From a virus: a stretch of 44,647 nucleotides of DNA. The stretch is taken from positions 1-44,647 of the IMG/VR virus record IMGVR_UViG_3300040801_005932; one strand, written 5' to 3'. The translations under genes were made by a program, and so were the position numbers. Of this stretch, positions 5,721 through 44,647 are shown piece after piece; the stretch's first letter is position 1; every line of letters begins with the position of its first letter. The notes beneath the pieces were generated by a model, which had not been told where the DNA came from, made no database searches, and saw nothing but the letters and a program-made list of their open reading frames with translations.

Positions 5721-6298
5721 GTCCGGTCACGCAACCCACGATCAACTTCCCGCGCATGAACGTGCGGCAGACCAAGACGCTCGGCGTGCCGAACCAACGG
5801 CTGTCGTTCACGTTGGAGCACACGCCACCGGAAGGCGCGATGGATGAAGCCATCCAACGTGCGCTCAACCGGATTGGCGTTCGGTGGCAGGCGGGCGCGA
5901 AGCTCGCCGCGCCGGTGGACAGCGGTCGGTTGCGGTCGTCGATCACGTTCTGCACGCCGACCACGCGTGCGTTGCACACGACCGTGTGGAAGGGTGGCGT
6001 CGAGTCGTACATGCCGCCGATGGCGCGGAAGAACAGCGTGCACGTCGGCACGAACGTCGATTACGCGCGAGCGGTGCACGAAGGCGTGATGGCGCACATG
6101 GAAACCGTCCTGCCGCACACCGTTCGCGCGCACAAGCGCAAGACCAAGCACGGCGTCGTGACGGTGCGCGCGCACTACCGGGGCATGCACTCGCGGCGTG
6201 TGCCGTACCGCGCGCCCAACAAGTTCATCGAGAAGCCCGCGATCAGCCTGATGCGTGACTTCCGAAAGATCTTCGAGCAAGAGTTCGGAGGCATCTAA
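5717..6298 (+). CDS. HK97 gp10-like neck / tail-completion protein
   Basis: This 193-residue protein carries the HK97 gp10-like core: a helix RALNRIGVRWQAGAKLAAPV, then DSGRLRSSI, then GTNVDYARAVHEG and a distal PNKFIEKPAI segment. The family sits at the head-tail joint and is needed for tail completion. The first ~40 residues precede the core and are probably strands; the central KRKTKHGVV stretch is basic. The gene overlaps the closure gene by four bases and is followed immediately by the terminator gene. Confidence 0.82.
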   Translation: MSPVTQPTINFPRMNVRQTKTLGVPNQRLSFTLEHTPPEGAMDEAIQRALNRIGVRWQAGAKLAAPVDSGRLRSSITFCTPTTRALHTTVWKGGVESYMPPMARKNSVHVGTNVDYARAVHEGVMAHMETVLPHTVRAHKRKTKHGVVTVRAHYRGMHSRRVPYRAPNKFIEKPAISLMRDFRKIFEQEFGGI

Positions 6299-6299
6299 C

Positions 6300-6731
6300 A
6301 TGGCGAACGGCATGCTGGCCGACATGCGGCAGCGGTTGGCGGACGTTGGGTTCGTGGACGCGCCCGTCGCGACCGGTCGGTTGCCGGACACGCCGGATGC
6401 GGTGCTCGCGTTGATCGAGTACGAGAGCTTGCCGCCGTTGGACTTCGATGCGACGAACCTGCCGGTGCTTGAGCGCATGAGCTTGCAGGTCATCGCGCGC
6501 GTCGGCAAGGACGCGGGCATCGGTGCCGCGGAAGCGCTCGCGTGGGACGCGTACGCGCGCCTCAGCGGACGGCACGTGGAAGTCACGCCCGCGTCGGGCA
6601 TCACGAACCGGTACGACTTCATCCGCGCGAACCACACGCCCGCTCATGTCGGGTACGACGACAACGACCGCCCGTTGGTGGTGGTGAACTTCAGCCTGCA
6701 ACGGTGGGGTGACATGGAGGTGCCAACGTGA
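6300..6731 (+). CDS. Tail terminator / minor capsid protein 3-like
   Basis: This 143-residue protein has the order expected for a tail terminator: an N-terminal helix (MLADMRQRLADVG), a short acidic region, ERMSLQVIARVGKDAGIGAAEALAWDAY, and a C-terminal DDNDRPLVVVNFSLQRWGD strand. This fits the minor-capsid-3 / tail-terminator family that caps the tail tube. The ATG at 6300, two bases after the previous stop, has CGGAGG upstream and was chosen over an earlier start inside the gp10-like gene. The stop overlaps the first glycosyltransferase-like gene, which is unusual; the tube protein normally follows here. Confidence 0.75.
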   Translation: MANGMLADMRQRLADVGFVDAPVATGRLPDTPDAVLALIEYESLPPLDFDATNLPVLERMSLQVIARVGKDAGIGAAEALAWDAYARLSGRHVEVTPASGITNRYDFIRANHTPAHVGYDDNDRPLVVVNFSLQRWGDMEVPT

Positions 6732-7414
6732 ACGTCCACACCGGAACGGTGGTGGTGATGTTCTCGCACGAAAGCCGCGCGCTCGCGCGCGTCGAGACCA
6801 TCGAAGCGTTCGCTCGTGTTGGCGCGCCGGTCGCGCACGTGCACGTGCAGCACGAACGCCCGAAGCAAGCGCACAACCGCCGGTCCGCATGGCAAGCGCT
6901 CAAAGCCGGGGTCGAACTGATTGCGCCGCGCGTGGACGCCGCAGGGGTGCTCGTCATCGAGGATGACGTGGACCCGGCGAGCACGCTGGTGGATTGGTTG
7001 CGGTACCTGGAAGCGCACGAGGAACGCCCGGTGACGCTGTACTTGGCGAACGCGTGCCGCCGGTGCGCGCCGGTCGCGTACGAACGCGTCGCCGCCGGAC
7101 GCGAGGTCGAACCGCACGTGGCGTCGCTGGTGCAACCGCACTTGTGGTGGGGTTCGCAAGCCGTGTGGTTCCCGTACCACGTCGCGCGCGCGGTGGTGGC
7201 GGATCAACGCCTGCAAGCGTTCGAGCACGGGCTTGGCCCGTGGGACCACGCGTTGCGGGTCATCTTCCAAGAGCAAGGTGCTACCCTCGGGGTAGCGGTA
7301 CCGAACGTGGTGCAGCATCGCGGGTTGCGGAACGTCATCCTCCCGCGGAAGGGCGTCCACCGTTCGGAAGCCTTTGACGGAGCGGCACCCGCTCCGACGC
7401 CGAAGGAGGCGTAA
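6728..7414 (+). CDS. Glycosyltransferase-like protein 1 (EDD motif)
   Basis: This 228-residue protein has a Rossmann-like start (TVVVMFSHESR, about residues 7-17), an HNRRSAWQAL helix (49-58) and a VLVIEDDVDP motif (Glu78-Asp79-Asp80). The motif follows a hydrophobic strand in the way that the metal and nucleotide-sugar binding DxD of GT-A transferases does. Two further genes (13061, 19733) share the same order, so this is a phage-encoded family. It starts at a GTG overlapping the terminator stop, with TGGAGG upstream, and so is expressed with the structural genes. Likely roles are glycosylation of virion proteins or trimming of a host glycan. The fold is inferred from motifs; no acceptor can be deduced. 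A short perfect hairpin (7379-7395) ends the gene. Confidence 0.65.
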   Translation: MNVHTGTVVVMFSHESRALARVETIEAFARVGAPVAHVHVQHERPKQAHNRRSAWQALKAGVELIAPRVDAAGVLVIEDDVDPASTLVDWLRYLEAHEERPVTLYLANACRRCAPVAYERVAAGREVEPHVASLVQPHLWWGSQAVWFPYHVARAVVADQRLQAFEHGLGPWDHALRVIFQEQGATLGVAVPNVVQHRGLRNVILPRKGVHRSEAFDGAAPAPTPKEA

Positions 7415-7416
7415 TC

Positions 7417-8019
7417 ATGCCGCAAGGACGTTCTGGACTGACTTCGCTCACCGCGCCGAACATGGTGCTGGACGCGGGCAGCGTGTACCTCAACATCGAC
7501 CTGACCGCGCTTGAGGACGCGAGCGCATCCGATCCGTGGGCGGACGCCATCGCTGGCAGCACGGTCATCAGCCTCGGTGGAACGCGTGGCGGCAACGTGT
7601 ACCGCGCGAACCGCACTATCCGCCAGATGCCCGTCGATGGAGCCATCGGCCCGGTCAAGGGCTTCGCTCGCCGCCAGACGGTCGCGCCGACGCTGACGAC
7701 GAACCTTGTCGAGGTCACCGACGACAACCTCATCCGGTCGCTGGCGGGCGCGAACTCGTCCGTGGTCGGGTCGTTCACCAAGGTCACCGGTGGCGAAATC
7801 GAGGACACGGACTACATCACGAACGTGGCGCTGGCGACGACGCTGAAGGGCGCGGACCAACCGTTCGTGATCGTGCTTCAGAACTGCCTGGTGCTTGAGT
7901 CGCCGGAGATGAGCTTCACCGACGAGAACGAGTTGGTGATGGCGGTGACGTTCACCGCGCACGTGCTGAGCACCGCACCGAACACGGAAGCGGCGTTCAT
8001 CTACCACCCGACCGTCTGA
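7417..8019 (+). CDS. Major tail (tube) protein
   Basis: This 200-residue protein is identified as the tail tube subunit by its place before the tail chaperones and tape measure, and by its sequence pattern. It has an N-terminal LDAGSVYLNIDLTALED strand pair and a core with VKGFARRQTVAPTLTTNLVE. A C-terminal half follows with EIEDTDYITNVAL and the late ENELVMAVTFTAHVLS strand, typical of gpV-like tube folds. The ribosome site AAGGAGG is very strong, as expected for an abundant structural protein. A strong terminator follows at 8051, so it may also be expressed above its neighbours. Confidence 0.85.
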   Translation: MPQGRSGLTSLTAPNMVLDAGSVYLNIDLTALEDASASDPWADAIAGSTVISLGGTRGGNVYRANRTIRQMPVDGAIGPVKGFARRQTVAPTLTTNLVEVTDDNLIRSLAGANSSVVGSFTKVTGGEIEDTDYITNVALATTLKGADQPFVIVLQNCLVLESPEMSFTDENELVMAVTFTAHVLSTAPNTEAAFIYHPTV

Positions 8020-8050
8020 TAGACTACGCGCGTCTCCAGGTGGACGCGAA

Positions 8051-8079
8051 CGACCCCCGACCACAACGGTTGGGGGTCG
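8051..8079 (+). terminator. Intrinsic-type terminator after the tail tube gene
   Basis: A 12-bp stem (8051-8062 with 8068-8079, one G-T pair) closes a five-base loop and is followed by CTCGTTTG. It lies 31 bases after the tube stop. A terminator here would reduce transcription into the chaperone and tape-measure genes, a known way to keep tube protein in excess. Confidence 0.7.
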
Positions 8080-8159
8080 CTCGTTTGCCGCGCATGCAAG
8101 CCGAAACCACCCCCCGGTGAGTTGATGTACTTGGGGCGCGGCAGACCGAGTGTACTAGG

Positions 8160-8190
8160 ATGGGGTAGCGCGATGGAGGCGCTACCCCAT
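8160..8190 (+). promoter_or_regulatory. RBS-enclosing hairpin before the tail chaperone
   Basis: A perfect 12-bp inverted repeat (8160-8171 and 8179-8190) has a seven-base loop. The GGAGG ribosome site (8175-8179) lies mainly in the loop, and the first two bases of the ATG at 8189 are the last bases of the right arm. In the mRNA this would hold the start codon in a stem while presenting the ribosome site, so it probably sets or controls the translation rate of the chaperone. Confidence 0.7.
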
Positions 8191-8608
8191 GGCAAAGGCT
8201 ACCAACTCGGCACCCGCGTTCGATCCGGTGATGGCGGAACCGCCGACCGTGATGATTGCGGGCAAACGGTACACGTTCCGGCGGTTGGGCATGCGCGACG
8301 TGTTCACCGTGTCGCGCATCCTCGGGCGCGGCGTGAGCGTCCTGGCGAACGCGGGGAACGTCAACCCCGGCACGGTGCTTCAGGTGTTCGTCGCGAGCAT
8401 GGCCGACAACGAGGATGCGGTGTTGGACCTGTTGGCGTCGCTGTTGCGGGTGACGCGCGATGAACTCGATGACCCGGAGCGGTTCCCGATGGACGCCATC
8501 GTCGAGGTGCTCACCGCGTTGTCGCGGCACCCGGACCTTGCGAGTTTCATGAAGCGCGTGCAGGACGCGACGGCGAACCTGCCGGAGCCGGAGACCACGA
8601 CTCCGTAG
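8189..8608 (+). CDS. Tail assembly chaperone, gpG-like
   Basis: This 139-residue protein lies between the tube gene and the tape measure, the invariable place of the tail chaperone pair. After a short N-terminal tail it has the strand pair TVMIAGKRYTFRRLGMRDVF. A helical domain follows, with DNEDAVLDLLASLLRVTRDEL and PMDAIVEVLTALSRH, as in gpG-like proteins. The chaperones coat the tape measure before tube polymerisation and are not part of the virion. The start codon sits in the stem of the hairpin at 8160-8190. The last ~45 codons overlap another open frame that encodes the T-like extension. Confidence 0.75.
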   Translation: MAKATNSAPAFDPVMAEPPTVMIAGKRYTFRRLGMRDVFTVSRILGRGVSVLANAGNVNPGTVLQVFVASMADNEDAVLDLLASLLRVTRDELDDPERFPMDAIVEVLTALSRHPDLASFMKRVQDATANLPEPETTTP

Positions 8609-12483: not shown

Positions 12484-13064
12484 TGGAGTGGCGTCCGCTG
12501 TCGCGTGAGAACGATCCGAACCCGTGGGACGCCGGGTGTCGCGAACCGGAGCGGTACCACATCCGTGCGGCGGGCACGACGGAGCAGGAGGTGGGGGACT
12601 TCCTGTGGGGTCTCGTGCGGGTGCTGCAACCTCGCATCGTGGTGGAAACCGGCACCGCGGACGGTGACACCACCGAACGGATTGGGCAAGCCCTCGTTGC
12701 GAACGGGCACGGGCGGTGCGTCACGGTGGAGCGCGGTCCACAGAGGGCGGCGCGCGCGCGGCGGCGGCTTGTGGGCCTTCCAGTAACCGCGTTATGCGAT
12801 GACGTGTTGGTGCTCGATTGGGCGCGGGTCATCCCGATGAACCGCCAGGTGGACATGGCGTTCATCGACGCCAGCACCGAACGCGCACGCGAGTTCATGT
12901 GGTTGCGCCCGTTCCTCGCGCCGGGCGCGTTCGTGGCGTTCCACGACACCGGAAACGGCCTCGCGGTCGGTGATGACGTGCGGAAGCTCGCGCGCGACGG
13001 AGTGCTCATCGAGACGGTGCACATCCCTTGCCCGCGCGGGCTGACGGTAGGGAGGGTCGCGTGA
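12483..13064 (+). CDS. SAM-dependent class I methyltransferase
   Basis: This 193-residue protein has the class I methyltransferase elements in order. VVETGTADGDTT (motif I, about 53-64) binds AdoMet, CVTVE (79-83) supplies the acidic residue of motif II, VDMAFIDAS (123-131) is the next strand, and GAFVAFHDTG (148-157) is a late strand with an FHDTG end. This order resembles small-molecule or sugar methyltransferases of the Methyltransf_24 / cephalosporin-hydroxylase type, not DNA methylases (no (D/N)PPY). It overlaps the tape-measure stop and is coupled by GTGA to glycosyltransferase-like protein 2. A sensible guess is methylation of the sugar added by that enzyme. A rare TTA codon occurs at 12793. 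Confidence 0.72.
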   Translation: MEWRPLSRENDPNPWDAGCREPERYHIRAAGTTEQEVGDFLWGLVRVLQPRIVVETGTADGDTTERIGQALVANGHGRCVTVERGPQRAARARRRLVGLPVTALCDDVLVLDWARVIPMNRQVDMAFIDASTERAREFMWLRPFLAPGAFVAFHDTGNGLAVGDDVRKLARDGVLIETVHIPCPRGLTVGRVA

Positions 13065-13711
13065 ACCCAACGGTCGTCATGGTCAGCCACGTCAGTCGCG
13101 CCACCACGGTGCGCGCGCGCACGCTCGCGGCGTTCGTTGCGATGGGCGCGCGCGTGCACGTCCAGGAGTCCACCGTCGAGGTCGGCAGCGACGTGGAAGT
13201 CAAGCGCATGGCGTGGCACGCGCTCGCGCACGCCAGCCGCAACCGCGACGGGTGCGTGTACGTGGAGGACGACATCCTCATCGACCCGGACGGGTGGGCG
13301 TGGGCGATGCGGCAACCGTGGCCGCGCGACCGGTACGACCTCATCACGTTGGGGTTGATCCGCACGACGCTGTTGGCGGATGACCGGCGGCACGTGACGC
13401 CTGGAACGCCGTGGCGGGTGGTGCCGATGATGCTCGGGTCGTTCCACGCGTTCCGCGGGTTCCACGGCACGCAAGGCGTGTGGCTGGCGGCGTCGCTGGT
13501 GGACCGCGCGTTGGCGCACCCCGAGCAGTTCATGAACGCGGACGGAACGCACCTGACGGAACCGCAGCATCCCGCCGAACGCGAACGCCGGAAACCGTGC
13601 GGGTTCGACTTCTGGCTGAAGGACTACGCGCAGCGCCCCGCAGCGGTCGTGCCGAACGTGGTGACGCACGATGACACCGTGCCGAGCACCATCCCACGGG
13701 GGGCATCATGA
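13061..13711 (+). CDS. Glycosyltransferase-like protein 2 (EDD motif)
   Basis: This 216-residue paralogue of the protein at 6728 has VVMVSHVSR (5-13), TLAAFVAMGARVHVQE (21-36), KRMAWHALAHA (48-58) and CVYVEDDILID (65-75, Glu69-Asp70-Asp71). The C-terminal half has AFRGFHGTQGVWLAASLVDR and FDFWLKDYAQRPAAVVPNVV. The last segment corresponds to ATLGVAVPNVVQHRG in paralogue 1. GTG at 13061 is used, overlapping the methyltransferase stop, with GGAGGG eight bases upstream; an earlier in-frame start at 13028 lies in the methyltransferase and is not supported. The pairing with a methyltransferase suggests a two-step sugar modification. The acceptor is unknown. Confidence 0.65.
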   Translation: MNPTVVMVSHVSRATTVRARTLAAFVAMGARVHVQESTVEVGSDVEVKRMAWHALAHASRNRDGCVYVEDDILIDPDGWAWAMRQPWPRDRYDLITLGLIRTTLLADDRRHVTPGTPWRVVPMMLGSFHAFRGFHGTQGVWLAASLVDRALAHPEQFMNADGTHLTEPQHPAERERRKPCGFDFWLKDYAQRPAAVVPNVVTHDDTVPSTIPRGAS

Positions 13712-19732: not shown

Positions 19733-20476
19733 TTGCCGCAGTTGGCGCGGCACGGCGTCACGCCGGAAGTGTTCCTCAGCCCGTGCAACCCAGCCGGGCC
19801 AACGCACAACCGCGAGGTCGCGTACCGCGCGCTGTCGTGGGCGGCATCGTTCGCGCGTCCGGTCCTGTTCGTCGAGGATGACATCGACGTGGGGCCGGAC
19901 TTCGCGTGGCATGTGGATGTCGCGGTGGGGTTGGATGCGCTGACGTACCTGTACCTCAACGATACGGTGTCGCGGTTGCGCGCGCATCACGGGCGCGAAC
20001 TCGCGGAGCGCATCACGAACCGCGCGCGGATCGAACGTGGCGCGTACGCCGTGCGAGAGCGCGCGGCGCTGTTTGGCACCCAATGCGTTGTCATTCCCGC
20101 GCGGTTGGTGCCGGTCATGATCGAGCGGTTGAGCAGCGACGAAGCCGCACGCGGCGAGCACCCGACGGATGGGGTGCTTCACGTGTGGGCACGGCGGCAT
20201 CCGCACGAGGGCGTGTACGTGATGCTGCCGCATCCGGTGCAACACCGCCAAGTCCGCACGGGCCGGTCGCCGTTGCATCGCACGTTGCGGAGCATGTCGT
20301 TCGGCATGCCGTGGGTGGACACGCGCGAGTCGGACGGTGTGGTCGAGGCGTTCGTGCCGCGCACCGTGCGAAGCGAGGACGTGCGCGCGCACTACGAAGC
20401 CGTGTTGCGTGAGCGCGCGCGAGCGCGGCGTGCCGCGCGGTTGGCACGGTTGGCTGGGGATCGGGCGGGCGGCTGA
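19733..20476 (+). CDS. Glycosyltransferase-like protein 3 (EDD motif), N-terminus uncertain
   Basis: This third member reads THNREVAYRALSWAASF (about 24-40) and VLFVEDDIDVG (44-54, Glu48-Asp49-Asp50) from a TTG at 19733. A C-terminal half holds LFGTQCVVIPARLVP and a very basic tail (RERARARRAARLARLAG). The expected first strand (like VVMVSHVSR in paralogue 2) is missing here but appears in another frame from ATG 19672 as VTPVMCSCAVREEAR. So the gene probably begins at 19672 and carries a one-base frameshift, or a sequence error, between about 19700 and 19733. As written, the protein lacks the nucleotide-binding first strand and might be inactive. It follows the lyase gene and precedes the fibre genes. 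Confidence 0.6.
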   Translation: MPQLARHGVTPEVFLSPCNPAGPTHNREVAYRALSWAASFARPVLFVEDDIDVGPDFAWHVDVAVGLDALTYLYLNDTVSRLRAHHGRELAERITNRARIERGAYAVRERAALFGTQCVVIPARLVPVMIERLSSDEAARGEHPTDGVLHVWARRHPHEGVYVMLPHPVQHRQVRTGRSPLHRTLRSMSFGMPWVDTRESDGVVEAFVPRTVRSEDVRAHYEAVLRERARARRAARLARLAGDRAGG

Positions 20477-39831: not shown

Positions 39832-40434
39832 ATGAACACCATCAACCAAACCACCGAAACCATCCCCATCGACGACATCCAACCCCACCCCCGCAACCCA
39901 CGCCGCGGCAACGCCACCGCCATCCACGACTCGATCACCACCAACGGCTTCTACGGCACCATCGTCGCCCAACGCAGCACCGGCCACATCCTCGTCGGCA
40001 ACCACCGCTACGCCGTCGCCAAAGCTGCCGGAGCCACCCACATCCCCGTCACCTGGGTAGACGTAGACGACGACCACGCCCTACGCATCCTCCTGGTAGA
40101 CAACCGCACCAACGACATCGCCGGATACGACGACGACGAACTCATGACCATGCTCACCAGCATCCTCGACGAGTTCGGCACCCTCGACGGCACCGGCTAC
40201 GACGACGACATCTTCACCAGCCTCACGAACGACGACGGCGACGACGAACTCGACCTCAACCCCACCGGCGAGAACACCGACACCGATCACGTGCCATTCC
40301 GGTTCGGGGACTACAACGGACGCGTCCGCACCACCACGTACCGCGCGTTCGTCACCGAGTACACCCGCCACCAAACCGACACCGGCGAACCGATGCTCGA
40401 CGACGTGCTCACCGCCTGGTTGCGCCTCGCATGA
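39832..40434 (+). CDS. ParB/Srx N-terminal domain protein
   Basis: This 200-residue protein has the ParB-like nuclease/CTPase core at residues ~10-100: IPIDDIQPHPRNPRRG, then IHDSITTNGFYGTIV, the signature HILVGNHRYAVAKAAGA (GNHRY at 56-60), and PVTWVDVDDDHALRILLVDN. The C-terminal half is very acidic (DDELMTMLTSILDEFG, DDGDDELDLN) and has no HTH. Stand-alone ParB-like proteins are common beside phage DNA methyltransferases, where they may guide modification or act as nucleases; this pairing fits. The stop overlaps the methyltransferase start. Codons differ from those of virion genes (GCC and CTC where those use GCG and TTG). Confidence 0.8.
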   Translation: MNTINQTTETIPIDDIQPHPRNPRRGNATAIHDSITTNGFYGTIVAQRSTGHILVGNHRYAVAKAAGATHIPVTWVDVDDDHALRILLVDNRTNDIAGYDDDELMTMLTSILDEFGTLDGTGYDDDIFTSLTNDDGDDELDLNPTGENTDTDHVPFRFGDYNGRVRTTTYRAFVTEYTRHQTDTGEPMLDDVLTAWLRLA

Positions 40435-41357
40435 GCGCGTTCACCGAACGCGTCGCCAAATCCCGCGCCGACCGCGCCGCCATGCTCGCCAAGTTCGGCA
40501 TCATCCCCACGAGCATCCTGCGCCTCGCACGCGGCAAAGCCAGCGCCCGCATGTTCACGTACCAGAAGGAAGAACGCGGGCGATCCATCGGCATGCGCTA
40601 CGACGGCACGCAAACCCGCGAAGTCGTCACCGACCGCGCCAAAGAGTCCGACCGCGAACGCGCCAAACTCAAGATGCTCGGCGGCGGACTCGAAACCAAG
40701 AAGTCCGGCAGCCGCGTCCAAGCCAGCATCATGCCCGCCGAACTCGTCGCGTTCTTCGCCAAGTACTACGCCAAACCCGGCGACACGTACCTCGACCCCT
40801 TCATCGGCCAAGGCGTCCAAATGCAAGTCGCCCACGAACTCGGCATGCACTACATCGGCATGGACGCCAGCCGCACGTTCATGGCGTACGTCGAACGCAC
40901 CCGCGACCGCATCGACGACCACACCACCACCATCGACGTACGCCTCGGAGACTCACGCCACCCCACGCACATCCCCGACCACACCGGCGACTTCATGTTC
41001 ACCAGCCCACCCTACTGGGACGTCGAATACTACGGCGACGAACCCGAGCAACTCGGCACCAACCACACCTACGACGAGTTCATGACCGGCATCACCGACG
41101 TGATGCGCGCGTGGCACCCCAAGATGAAACCCGGCGCGTACGCCATCATCAACACCAACGACATCCGCAAAGACGGACGGTTCATCCCGTACCACGCGGA
41201 CTACATCCGCGCCACCACCAACGCCGGATGGACGATGCACGACATGTGGATCATCGACGGACTCGTCGGCGGACTCCCCAAAGCGTTCGGTGTCGCCTTC
41301 AACCTCAAACGCATCGCACCCAAAGTCCACGAGTACGCCCTGGTGTTCCGCGCATGA
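40431..41357 (+). CDS. DNA methyltransferase, N4-cytosine/N6-adenine type
   Basis: This 308-residue protein has the AdoMet-binding motif DPFIGQG (122-128), then MHYIGMDAS (139-147), and the catalytic TSPPYW (191-196) that flips and methylates the exocyclic amino group of C or A. Motif I precedes motif IV. The first ~95 residues are basic and may touch DNA. Later segments include INTNDIRKDGRFIPYHADYI and GLVGGLPKAFGVAFNLK. No paired restriction enzyme is encoded, so it is an orphan enzyme, probably protecting the phage genome from host restriction or changing expression. ATG at 40431 overlaps the ParB stop. The target site cannot be told from the sequence. Confidence 0.87.
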   Translation: MSAFTERVAKSRADRAAMLAKFGIIPTSILRLARGKASARMFTYQKEERGRSIGMRYDGTQTREVVTDRAKESDRERAKLKMLGGGLETKKSGSRVQASIMPAELVAFFAKYYAKPGDTYLDPFIGQGVQMQVAHELGMHYIGMDASRTFMAYVERTRDRIDDHTTTIDVRLGDSRHPTHIPDHTGDFMFTSPPYWDVEYYGDEPEQLGTNHTYDEFMTGITDVMRAWHPKMKPGAYAIINTNDIRKDGRFIPYHADYIRATTNAGWTMHDMWIIDGLVGGLPKAFGVAFNLKRIAPKVHEYALVFRA

Positions 41358-41662
41358 CCGTCCACCTCCCCATCGTCCACACCACCCACCACACCATCCA
41401 CGGTGACTTCACCGACGGCAACCGCACGTGGCTCGCGTTCATCACCGCCGTCAACCACCTCACCGGCATCACCATCCTCACCAGCCAGCGATACGACTTC
41501 CCCGGCGGCGGCATCAGCGGCACCATCATCCTCAGCGAAAGCCACGCCAGCATCCACACCTGGCCCGAGCACAACACCGCCTGGGTCGAACTCGCCACGT
41601 GCGGCGACCCCACCGCACTCGACGAGTTCACCCGACGCACACGCAACCTCGGCACACCATGA
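41354..41662 (+). CDS. speD: S-adenosylmethionine decarboxylase (AdoMetDC)
   Basis: This 102-residue protein matches the short bacterial/archaeal AdoMetDC class. GGGISGTIILSESHASIHTW and WVELATCGDP hold the expected catalytic residues: Ser63 (self-cleaved to the pyruvoyl group after Glu62), Ser55, His68 and Cys83, the same numbers I know for the Thermotoga maritima enzyme. So the active site looks intact. The reaction turns AdoMet into decarboxylated AdoMet, the propylamine donor for spermidine. It overlaps the DNA methyltransferase gene by four bases. It may supply polyamines for packing DNA, or drain AdoMet. The C-terminus is short compared with cellular forms, which usually run ~20-30 residues longer. 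Confidence 0.88.
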   Translation: MTVHLPIVHTTHHTIHGDFTDGNRTWLAFITAVNHLTGITILTSQRYDFPGGGISGTIILSESHASIHTWPEHNTAWVELATCGDPTALDEFTRRTRNLGTP

Positions 41663-41716: not shown

Positions 41717-42109
41717 ATGCCACGCGACGACCGCAGCACCGCCGACCGGCGACGCAAACCACCCACCAAACGCGAGTACCGCGAAGCCATCAAACGGCAC
41801 CACGGCCTCCTGAGCATCGCCGCGCGATCCCTCGGCGTGAACCGCCGCAGCATCTACCGCGCCATCGAACGGTGGCCCGACCTCAAGGACGAGATCGACG
41901 AAGCCCGCGAGTTCACCGTGGACACCGCCGAAGGCAAGCTGTACGCCGCCATCGCCAAAGGCGAAGCGTGGGCCATCCGGTACTTCCTGCAAACCATCGG
42001 CAAGGACCGCGGGTACATCGAAGCCCGCGAGCACCGGCACTCCGGCAGCATCGACCTGCACCAACTGACGGACGAGGAACTAGAGGCCATCGCGCGTGGC
42101 GTCGGCTGA
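41717..42109 (+). CDS. terS: Terminase small subunit
   Basis: This 130-residue protein has a basic N-terminus, an HTH (HHGLLSIAARSLGVNRRSIY, then RAIERWPDLKDEIDEA) and an oligomerisation part with EGKLYAAIAKGEAWAIRYFL and IGKDRGYIEAREH. It lies directly before the large subunit and overlaps it by 14 bases. It should recognise the packaging start site on phage DNA. The ribosome site is AAGGGAGG. Codon choice follows the ParB block more than the virion genes. Confidence 0.83.
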   Translation: MPRDDRSTADRRRKPPTKREYREAIKRHHGLLSIAARSLGVNRRSIYRAIERWPDLKDEIDEAREFTVDTAEGKLYAAIAKGEAWAIRYFLQTIGKDRGYIEAREHRHSGSIDLHQLTDEELEAIARGVG

Positions 42110-43502
42110 AACCATCCGCGCGGACGCGGCACGCATCCTGTTGGCACGCCGTCGCGTGCGGTCGTTCGCGCGGTACGCGGACGATCCGGTGGGGTTCGCG
42201 GTGGACATCCTTGGCCTCACCATGTGGGACCGGTTGGCGGACATCCTCACGGCGTTGCGTGACCACGACCGCGTGGCGATCCGCGCCGGACGCAAGGTCA
42301 GCAAGAGCACCGGCATCGTCGCGGCGGCGTTGTGGCACGCGTTCGCGCGCGACGGCAAGGTCATCATGACCAGCGCGTCGTTCCCGCAGGTCAAAGGCAT
42401 CCTTTGGGCGGAACTCCAAACGATCAACGACCGCGCGCGCCTGTTCACGGACGTGCCACGCGATCCGAACACCGGCATCGCCACCATCAACGGTGGAGCC
42501 ATCCAAGCGCGCACCGCCGCGAAACGCGAGAACATGCAAGGGTACTCCGGCCAATCCGCGATGTACCTCATCGACGAGGCATCCGGCGTCGAACGCGACA
42601 TCGTGGAAGCCATCGAAGGCAACGTCGCCGGTGGCGGCAGCATCGTCCTCACCGGCAACCCGACGCGCATGAGCGGACCGTTCTACGACGCGTTCCACGG
42701 CGGACGGCACGTGTGGACCGGCCTGCACATCAGCAGCCGCGAAAGCCCCAACGTGCAACAGAACCGCATGGTCATCCCTGGCCTCGCGACCACGCGGTTC
42801 ATCGAAGAAGCCGAAGCGCGGTACGGCCCGGACAGCCCGTACGTCAGCGTGCACGTGGACGGCGAGTTCCCCGCGAGTGGCACGAACAACGTCATCCCCC
42901 TCGCGCTCGCGCAAGCCGCCGAGGAACGCTGGGCCGCCACCATCCCCGAAGGGAAGCTCGTGCTCGGTGTGGACCCCGCGCGATCCGGCGGTGACGAGAC
43001 CGTCGTGTACCCCGTGCGTGGCCTGAAGGCGTACCCGCCCATCAGCGCGCGCAACACCGACACGTACGCCACGGTGGACCTCGTGCTGCAAGCGGCACGC
43101 GCGCTCGCCGTTCGTGGCGAGAAGCCACGCGCGCATGTGGACACCATCGGCATCGGCGCAGGCGTCGTGGACGTGCTCATGCACAAGCACGCCAGCGTCA
43201 TCGACACCATCCCCATCAACGTCGCGGAAGTCAGCACCAGCGAGCAACACCGTCGGTTGCGCGATCAGGTGTGGTTCGCGTTGCGCGCGTGGTTGGACGA
43301 GGGCGGCGCGTACCCGCCGGATGACTTCACGCGCGAGGACTTGATTGCGGCGACGTACCGGTTCGACGAACGTGGCCGGTACATGGTCGTGAGCAAGGAC
43401 GAACTCCGCGAAACGCTTGGTCGCTCACCTGACCGCGCGGATGCGCTAGGCTTGGCAGTGTACCGCCCGCCGAGCACCGCGCCGCGAGTAAGGAGCCTGT
43501 GA
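42096..43502 (+). CDS. terL: Terminase large subunit
   Basis: This 468-residue packaging motor has a variant Walker A (RAGRKVSKST, 63-72), a Walker B (MYLIDEASG, 156-164), and the coupling motif VLTGNPTRMSG (184-194). The nuclease part begins with LVLGVDPARSGGDETVV (289-304, Asp293 and Asp300), and THVDTIGIGAGVVD-like residues near 350 form the second acidic strand. It should translocate and cut concatemeric DNA. GTG at 42096 is used, inside the small-subunit gene. Both ends of this genome lie in the portal gene, so the assembly end is not a packaging site by itself. Confidence 0.93.
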   Translation: MASAETIRADAARILLARRRVRSFARYADDPVGFAVDILGLTMWDRLADILTALRDHDRVAIRAGRKVSKSTGIVAAALWHAFARDGKVIMTSASFPQVKGILWAELQTINDRARLFTDVPRDPNTGIATINGGAIQARTAAKRENMQGYSGQSAMYLIDEASGVERDIVEAIEGNVAGGGSIVLTGNPTRMSGPFYDAFHGGRHVWTGLHISSRESPNVQQNRMVIPGLATTRFIEEAEARYGPDSPYVSVHVDGEFPASGTNNVIPLALAQAAEERWAATIPEGKLVLGVDPARSGGDETVVYPVRGLKAYPPISARNTDTYATVDLVLQAARALAVRGEKPRAHVDTIGIGAGVVDVLMHKHASVIDTIPINVAEVSTSEQHRRLRDQVWFALRAWLDEGGAYPPDDFTREDLIAATYRFDERGRYMVVSKDELRETLGRSPDRADALGLAVYRPPSTAPRVRSL

Positions 43503-43503
43503 G

Positions 43504-44647
43504 GTGCCAAGTCTGCTCGAACGCGTGTTCCGACGCAAGGCCAGCGCCACGACCCGGCTTGAGGTGCAAGCGGTTCGTGGCGCGGATGCCGTGTGGACGC
43601 CCCGCCGGTTCGACAAGCTCGTCGAGGAAGGGTACGAACAGGCGGTATGGGCGTACGCGTGCGTGTCGTGGTTGACGCGCCTCGCCAAAGGCGCGCGGTG
43701 GATCATCACCGACGGCGACGACGAGAAGAACGAGCACCCGCTGTTGGACTTGCTGGCGCGACCGAACCCGCACCTGAGCGGCAGCGGGTTCATCGAAAGC
43801 GTCATGGGGTACTGGCTCACGGCGGGCAACGCGTACATCGAACGCGTCGGCTTGCCGAACCGCCCGCCGGAAGAACTGTGGGTGAAACGGCCCGACCGCA
43901 TGCGCGTGGTGCCCGATCCGGTAGACCTCGTGCGCGGGTACGTGTACGAACTCAACGGCGAGAAGGTCACGTTCGACCTGTGGCAAGTCCGGCACCTCAA
44001 GACGTGGGCACCGCTCAACGACTGGTACGGCATGAGTCCCCTGAGCGCCGCCGCGCGCGGCATCGACATCTACAACGCCGGGCAAGCGCACAACCTCGCG
44101 CTGGTGCAGAACGGCGCGCGACCCTCCGGCGCGTGGGTCACCACCGGCACCATGACCGACGACCAGTTCCGCCGGTTGCGCGCGGAGATGGACGAAGCCA
44201 CGCAACTCGGACGGCGTGGACGCCCCATGCTGATCGAGGGCGGCACCACCTGGCAGGAGCTTGGGTTGTCACCGAAGGACTTGGACTTCCTCGCGGGGCA
44301 AGCCGACGCCGCCCGCCAAGTGCACGCCGCGTACGGTGTGCATCCGGTCGTGACCGGCATGCAAGAAGGCACGTACGAGAACCAACAGCAAGCGTTGCGC
44401 GCGCTGATGCTCAATGCGGTGCTGCCGTTCCTCGATTACTTCGTGGGTGAGATGAACGAGTGGCTTGCGCCCGCGTACGGACCGAACGTGACGCTGGCGT
44501 ACGACCGCGACGCGTTCCCGGCGCTGTCGGAGGACCAATCGAGCTTGTGGGAACGCGCGAACGTCGGTTGGACGAGCGGGTTGCTCACGCGCAACGAAGC
44601 GCGCGCCATGGTCGGGTACGACGAACTGCCACCGGACGAGGGCGACG
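43504..44647 (+). CDS. Portal-MuF-metallopeptidase fusion, N-terminal (portal) part
   Basis: This frame holds an HK97-type portal domain: VWAYACVSWLTRLAKGARWI, then HPLLDLLARPNPHLSGSGF, then RVVPDPVDLVRGYVYELNGE and the clip/stem region with MLIEGGTTWQELGLSPKDLD and GVHPVVTGMQEGTYENQQQA. The portal is the ring through which DNA enters and leaves the head. It starts at GTG 43504 with AAGGAG upstream and remains open to the window end. There it continues in frame at base 3 (see 1-1778), so no stop separates the portal from the head-morphogenesis domain. The portal part is slightly shorter than in stand-alone portal proteins. Confidence 0.93.
   Translation, partial: MPSLLERVFRRKASATTRLEVQAVRGADAVWTPRRFDKLVEEGYEQAVWAYACVSWLTRLAKGARWIITDGDDEKNEHPLLDLLARPNPHLSGSGFIESVMGYWLTAGNAYIERVGLPNRPPEELWVKRPDRMRVVPDPVDLVRGYVYELNGEKVTFDLWQVRHLKTWAPLNDWYGMSPLSAAARGIDIYNAGQAHNLALVQNGARPSGAWVTTGTMTDDQFRRLRAEMDEATQLGRRGRPMLIEGGTTWQELGLSPKDLDFLAGQADAARQVHAAYGVHPVVTGMQEGTYENQQQALRALMLNAVLPFLDYFVGEMNEWLAPAYGPNVTLAYDRDAFPALSEDQSSLWERANVGWTSGLLTRNEARAMVGYDELPPDEGD

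Follow-up and report, generated by a model that had tools for sequence, protein, structure and literature searches.

In phage S-B43, CmoA makes carboxy-AdoMet for CmoX, a DNA methyltransferase homologue that often occurs with ParB, and the result is carboxymethylated DNA (PMC12783734). AdoMet decarboxylase (SpeD) has been called the most common polyamine gene in phages and read as part of polyamine metabolism, and the SpeD of Croceibacter phage P2559S (AFM54845) is a proven AdoMet decarboxylase (AdoMetDC) (PMC9992855). The main text of the latter report, in which the word "methyltransferase" does not occur, makes no mention of a cassette context. Motif I of aminopropyltransferases reads GGG(D/E)G (PMC11107197); its Asp, in the spermidine synthase of plants, binds the amino group of decarboxylated AdoMet (dcAdoMet) and is assumed to repel the carboxylate of AdoMet, and a change of this Asp to Ile gives the enzyme a low methyltransferase activity that two further changes raise (PMC3725402).

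Here, a phage speD gene was analyzed in a window of 44,647 nucleotides (the whole stretch of virus DNA under study, IMG/VR record IMGVR_UViG_3300040801_005932), for which no near-identical phage records were found. It is the last gene of a three-gene cassette at the head of the packaging genes:

39832..40434, + strand: ParB-like N-terminal-domain protein, 200 amino acids, first gene of the cassette (Pfam ParB_N, 1.5e-7; PHROG ParB-like partition protein, 2.4e-39)
40431..41357, + strand: class A DNA "methyltransferase," 308 amino acids, amino-methyltransferase type (Pfam N6_N4_Mtase, 2.6e-17)
40794..40820, + strand: AdoMet motif I loop DPFIGQGVQ, methyltransferase residues 122-130 (sequence comparison)
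41004..41015, + strand: catalytic motif IV SPPY, methyltransferase residues 192-195 (sequence motif)
41354..41357, + strand: ATGA shared by the end of the methyltransferase gene and the start of speD (same four-base arrangement in loci L018 and L050)
41354..41662, + strand: SpeD, predicted minimal class 1b AdoMet decarboxylase proenzyme, 102 amino acids, ATG start (Pfam, PHROG, alignment, AlphaFold)
41537..41542, + strand: Glu62-Ser63, predicted site of self-cleavage, at which Ser63 would yield the pyruvoyl group (T. maritima AdoMetDC alignment; kept in 63/63 paired SpeDs)
41555..41557, + strand: His68 of SpeD, processing (T. maritima alignment; conservation in paired SpeDs)
41600..41602, + strand: Cys83 of SpeD, catalysis (T. 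maritima alignment; conservation in paired SpeDs)
41717..42109, + strand: helix-turn-helix protein, probable terminase small subunit, a weak assignment (PHROG E=0.006; precedes the large subunit)
42096..43502, + strand: terminase large subunit (PHROG 5.1e-39)

The preliminary description had named the last cassette gene an AdoMet decarboxylase with Ser55, Glu62-Ser63, His68, and Cys83 all in place and a C terminus shorter than that of cellular enzymes, and these points were borne out. The protein matched Pfam AdoMet_dc (PF02675; E=1.4e-15, 57.9 bits versus a curated cut-off of 25) and the PHROG "S-adenosylmethionine decarboxylase" (5.9e-13), and it scored 55 bits with the NCBIfam equivalog TIGR03330, under the cut-off of 75.7. 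Because its residues 35-86 align gap-free to residues 35-86 of the Thermotoga maritima AdoMetDC (1tlu), the named active-site residues bear identical numbers in both enzymes. The AlphaFold model (mean pLDDT 94.2) is compact, with five strands and two helices, despite missing the last strand at the C terminus, and the closest PDB structures were AdoMetDCs of Aquifex (2iii; TM 0.76, E 7e-7) and Thermotoga (1vr7, 1tlu). Cys83 is followed by 19 residues, versus about 47 in T. maritima. Close relatives were found in the IMG/VR contigs L060 (102 amino acids), L064, L065, L050 (113 amino acids), and L061/L062. The longer protein of L050 had raised a frameshift or sequencing error as the origin of the short end, a reading that was dropped because the proteins of L060, L064, and L065 end alike and 27 of the 63 distinct SpeDs adjoining methyltransferases are equally short (20 or fewer residues after Cys83). 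The short C terminus is a trait of a phage SpeD subfamily.

Window SpeD is very probably a working AdoMet decarboxylase, and AdoMet would be the substrate of exactly this protein. Substrate switches to ornithine (SpeDC, with a diagnostic Gln, Thr, Phe, and Tyr) or to arginine (SpeDA) are common among phage SpeD homologues (PMC9992855, PMC10407285) and are likewise found without spermidine synthase, yet several observations speak against such a switch here. The reported mark of the arginine enzymes is loss of a conserved AdoMetDC proline (PMC10407285), presumably Pro71, and the His-Thr-x-Pro-Glu stretch is intact in window SpeD (HTWPE), with T-x-P-E, Pro71 included, kept in 62 of the 63 paired SpeDs. 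The P2559S protein is a true AdoMetDC, and the nearest bacterial relative of window SpeD, encoded in a Caldilineaceae MAG (L137), is naturally fused to spermidine synthase, which supports AdoMet as substrate. We regard a switched substrate as very improbable. The L137 fusion (7001-8197) was Pfam-confirmed, and a similar-looking SpeD fusion in Pseudonocardia spinosispora (L141:6824-8152) was judged by eye. SpeD homologues with a signal-peptide-like hydrophobic N terminus were observed in the metagenomic virus contigs L001 (6085-6480) and L005 (9830-10231).

The window methyltransferase has the signature of DNA amino-methyltransferases (PF01555), with motif I (DPFIGQG) preceding motif IV (SPPY, of the form [DNS]PP[YFW]). 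The solved sequences closest to it were 2zie, MboIIA, CcrM, and N4-cytosine methyltransferases, and the top matches of its AlphaFold model (pLDDT 75.7) were methyltransferase folds. Its gene overlaps speD by the four bases noted before (ATGA), and the ParB and methyltransferase genes share a four-base overlap too. Elsewhere in the window, three proteins of ~230 to 250 amino acids without a Pfam match (6728-7414, 13028-13711, and 19733-20476) lie scattered among structural genes, the first two having similar N termini. The window begins (1-168) shortly upstream of a Mu F-like head gene and closes (43504-44647) inside a still open ORF, probably portal, downstream of the terminase; its ends look like a cut in a circularly permuted genome.

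Two methyltransferase classes were distinguished in the cassette, class A with a separate ParB gene, as in the window, and class B, a ParB-methyltransferase fusion. We gathered 88 paired loci in which SpeD comes directly after ParB-methyltransferase; their 63 distinct SpeDs all keep ES63, H68, and C83. When the fused methyltransferase alone was used as query, SpeD was present in 64 of the best 80 loci and, with few exceptions, lay no more than about 100 bases from the methyltransferase; class A methyltransferases usually come with SpeD as well. A ParB gene also adjoins the methyltransferase in L018, L050, L060, L064, and L066. The order ParB-methyltransferase-SpeD with the same overlap was found in L018, whose methyltransferase is 55% identical to that of the window, and in L050; chance as the origin of the ATGA overlap was rejected on this ground and because a possible SpeD start lies no later than the last base of the methyltransferase stop codon in 71 of the 88 paired loci. 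The coupling of the two genes, as first proposed from the overlap, holds, and the cassette recurs in phages. Window-type SpeD pairs with class A in L050, L060, and L064 and with class B in L062 and L235; SpeD types do not follow methyltransferase classes, so partners have been exchanged and the pairing itself has been kept.

Outside phages, 398 bacterial genomes of one phylum held a single true class B pair (L283), which lacks SpeD, the other matches read there being ParB halves of other methyltransferases, and 396 genomes of a second phylum held three weak class A matches, all without SpeD. A search for SpeD elsewhere in the records of unpaired methyltransferases found none. ASCH-domain proteins were considered as a cassette part and set aside, being present in only 3 of 20 records. 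In L050, tandem class A methyltransferases (5995-6918 and 7454-8350) lie upstream of a single SpeD.

The usual reading of phage SpeD (PMC9992855) is that host spermidine synthase turns its dcAdoMet into spermidine, which helps translation, replication, or packaging, the methyltransferase being merely a neighbor. This is the main rival to a role in DNA modification, and it draws on the ability of P2559S SpeD to restore spermidine in an Escherichia coli speD deletion strain (PMC9992855) and on the frequent position of the cassette beside terminase genes: a fused ParB-methyltransferase, then SpeD, then terminase genes are found in the AT-rich contigs L034 and L044 (the latter begins inside the methyltransferase gene), in Pseudomonas phage ZRG1, and in P2559S. 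It leaves unexplained, however, why SpeD follows this particular methyltransferase in dozens of lineages, including L018 and L050, where no terminase gene comes after SpeD, which indicates that the link of SpeD is to the methyltransferase and not to packaging. The preliminary description had also stated that no spermidine synthase is encoded; indeed, none was found in the window, nor (as PF01564) in any of 20 cassette virus records, a further point against polyamine supply.

What most separates these readings is the AdoMet pocket of the partner. The class B set comprised 152 enzymes, 61 of them SpeD-paired (L239 was counted as paired, its SpeD lying one gene further on); paired and unpaired enzymes of a first set were contrasted column by column. 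The top-ranked column was a single motif I residue (x), with FAG-D-(T/S)VFG as the motif of paired enzymes and FAG-G as that of most unpaired ones. Over the full 152, residue x was Asp or Glu in 61/61 paired enzymes, whereas the unpaired ones divided into Gly (82), Glu (4), Asp (3), Arg (1), and one unread; at the third position after x, a basic residue occurred in 0/61 paired and 82/90 unpaired enzymes. The rule, found in one set, was then checked on fresh loci gathered with unpaired enzymes as query, where Asp was present in 14/14 new paired and Gly in 73/80 new unpaired class B enzymes. On the tree, six of the seven changes of residue x fall on a branch where SpeD, too, is lost (five cases) or gained (one case, L062), the seventh being off from a SpeD change by one small clade, and a Pagel test of SpeD versus acidic residue x gave LR 38.2 (p about 1e-7). 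Only two of the 93 columns conserved in paired class B enzymes differ in all five independent SpeD losses, namely, residue x and, a short way ahead of motif I, Leu217, which is changed to Phe. Arg was not regained in nested SpeD losses. In the compared enzymes, SpeD of the fused class B cassettes co-evolves with the AdoMet pocket of its partner, which argues against AdoMet as the donor in SpeD-paired class B enzymes and points to dcAdoMet as the partner's cofactor. By motif I register only, residue x of paired class B enzymes falls at the place of the spermidine synthase Asp; profile alignment of class A or class B methyltransferases to spermidine synthase gave no alignment.

Polyamine supply leaves unexplained why loss of SpeD goes with a change in this pocket, and we hold it to be unlikely. 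Less likely still is that SpeD serves as a sink, draining AdoMet or flooding the cell with dcAdoMet and so blunting AdoMet-dependent restriction or methylation by the host. SpeD does act on AdoMet, as does the T3 AdoMet hydrolase by another route, and SAM lyases of other phages disable AdoMet-dependent defence (cited in PMC12783734). AdoMet removal is nevertheless doubted because it would starve a partner in need of AdoMet and because speD stands at the head of the packaging genes, in no visibly early location; moreover, the acidic residue of paired class B enzymes is expected to favor dcAdoMet over AdoMet, the opposite of an adaptation to scarce AdoMet. Polyamine supply for DNA condensation and AdoMet removal were the two purposes offered in the preliminary description; neither is refuted, but neither accounts for the way SpeD tracks the pocket residues of its partner.

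In class A, the window's own kind, the residue between the motif I glycines is Gln, or His in a few enzymes, whether SpeD is present or absent; it is Gln127 in the window, and the acidic motif I residue of aminopropyltransferases is absent. Three positions on (Gln130 in the window), 10/10 paired class A enzymes had Gln, whereas 6/7 unpaired ones had Arg (Fisher p 0.0006, not corrected for kinship; the first methyltransferase of L050, which has Gln and whose SpeD follows the second copy, was omitted). This Arg-to-Gln change, seen in few sequences, would fit loss of a contact to the carboxylate, and in class A it is the sole sequence feature that would support use of dcAdoMet by the partner. The unpaired class A enzyme of L198 has Gln and no SpeD. 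Among class B enzymes, three lineages (L249, L256, and L369) keep Asp without SpeD in the available record, and the four unpaired enzymes with Glu at x have Lys three positions on. All these exceptions may reflect incomplete records or dcAdoMet supplied by the host.

Other genes were observed next to methyltransferases without SpeD. Of 78 class B loci that have the Gly/Arg type and lack SpeD, 15 (L058 and others) encode a pyridoxal-phosphate (PALP) enzyme of ~234 amino acids, and in the loci read it occupies the slot after the methyltransferase (L237:2597-3301, L278:2772-3476, and L279:2231-2935). It was never found together with SpeD or an Asp-type methyltransferase and may be another tailoring enzyme. 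After Glu/Lys-type methyltransferases without SpeD, L331 (2829-3800) encodes a protein with an SGGLDS (PP-loop ATPase-like) motif, and L361 (4121-4609) encodes a small protein resembling that of the next L331 gene (3784-4332), possibly a third cassette variant.

We therefore propose, for cassettes of this kind, that SpeD would cut itself at Glu62-Ser63 and convert AdoMet to dcAdoMet, which the partner methyltransferase would take, in place of AdoMet, as donor; SpeD would be made together with the methyltransferase because the partner uses its product. The partner would then move the aminopropyl group onto an exocyclic base amine of the phage DNA (cytosine N4 or adenine N6), yielding a bulky, positively charged modification just before packaging that could shield the DNA from restriction and partly neutralize it. 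That SpeD makes the dcAdoMet used by its partner is somewhat better supported than the full reading, a widespread phage DNA modification in which SpeD supplies dcAdoMet and the partner is a DNA aminopropyltransferase, to which we give a probability of about 0.5; we infer the transfer of aminopropyl and not methyl, the base that receives it, and the advantage gained by the phage. A partner that uses dcAdoMet yet transfers its methyl group, so that the phage owns an orthogonal methyl donor, would show the same pocket co-evolution, and the sequence leaves the transferred group undecided. Such a donor would bring no obvious gain over AdoMet, and in enzymes known to have the acidic residue, the group transferred is aminopropyl (PMC11107197, PMC3725402); we give this variant little credence.

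The literature searched, without most subscription papers and preprints, contained neither a SpeD-methyltransferase cassette nor dcAdoMet in phage DNA modification. To our knowledge, no DNA system has dcAdoMet as donor or aminopropyl as a DNA modification. Together, our analyses suggest that many phages may put a larger, positively charged group on their DNA instead of methyl, with a sequence rule by which motif I has Asp/Glu where SpeD is present and Gly where it is absent. If this is true for a large share of phage SpeDs, the annotation of these genes will have to be revised and a new DNA base can be searched for directly; such a cationic base would matter for how phages evade restriction and pack their DNA and would be the second case, after carboxy-AdoMet, of phages altering AdoMet for a new DNA mark.

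Compared with the class 1b SpeD/SpeH enzymes of T. maritima (1tlu) and A. aeolicus (2iii), window SpeD shares the fold and the numbering of Ser55, Glu62, Ser63, His68, and Cys83; it differs in its length of 102 amino acids, in lacking the N-terminal G-x-H motif and the last strand, in having Glu79 where Asp is usual, and in adjoining a DNA methyltransferase gene and not a spermidine synthase gene. The P2559S SpeD is likewise short (106 amino acids), has the active-site residues, and lies in the cassette after a ParB-methyltransferase fusion, but it belongs to a different SpeD subtype and its partner is of the fused class B. Spermidine synthase and other aminopropyltransferases resemble the cassette methyltransferases in their methyltransferase-like fold and, by motif register, the paired class B enzymes in the motif I Asp/Glu, which in aminopropyltransferases stands beside dcAdoMet; their substrate is a small amine, whereas that proposed for the cassette partner is DNA, and the cassette methyltransferases have no detectable sequence similarity to them.

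The putrescinyl-thymine base of phage PhiW-14 carries a positive charge. The DNA of this phage is hypermodified (PMC5977210), as the proposed cassette product would be, but by other chemistry, on thymine and not from dcAdoMet. The nearest precedent for the SpeD-methyltransferase cassette would be, by analogy, CmoA-CmoX: there, as proposed here, an AdoMet-altering enzyme feeds a changed cofactor to a DNA methyltransferase homologue in which a cofactor-binding residue is changed, often with ParB nearby. The two differ in that CmoA-CmoX employs carboxy-AdoMet and a C5-cytosine enzyme, whereas the cassette would employ decarboxylated AdoMet and an amino-methyltransferase of the N4/N6 type.
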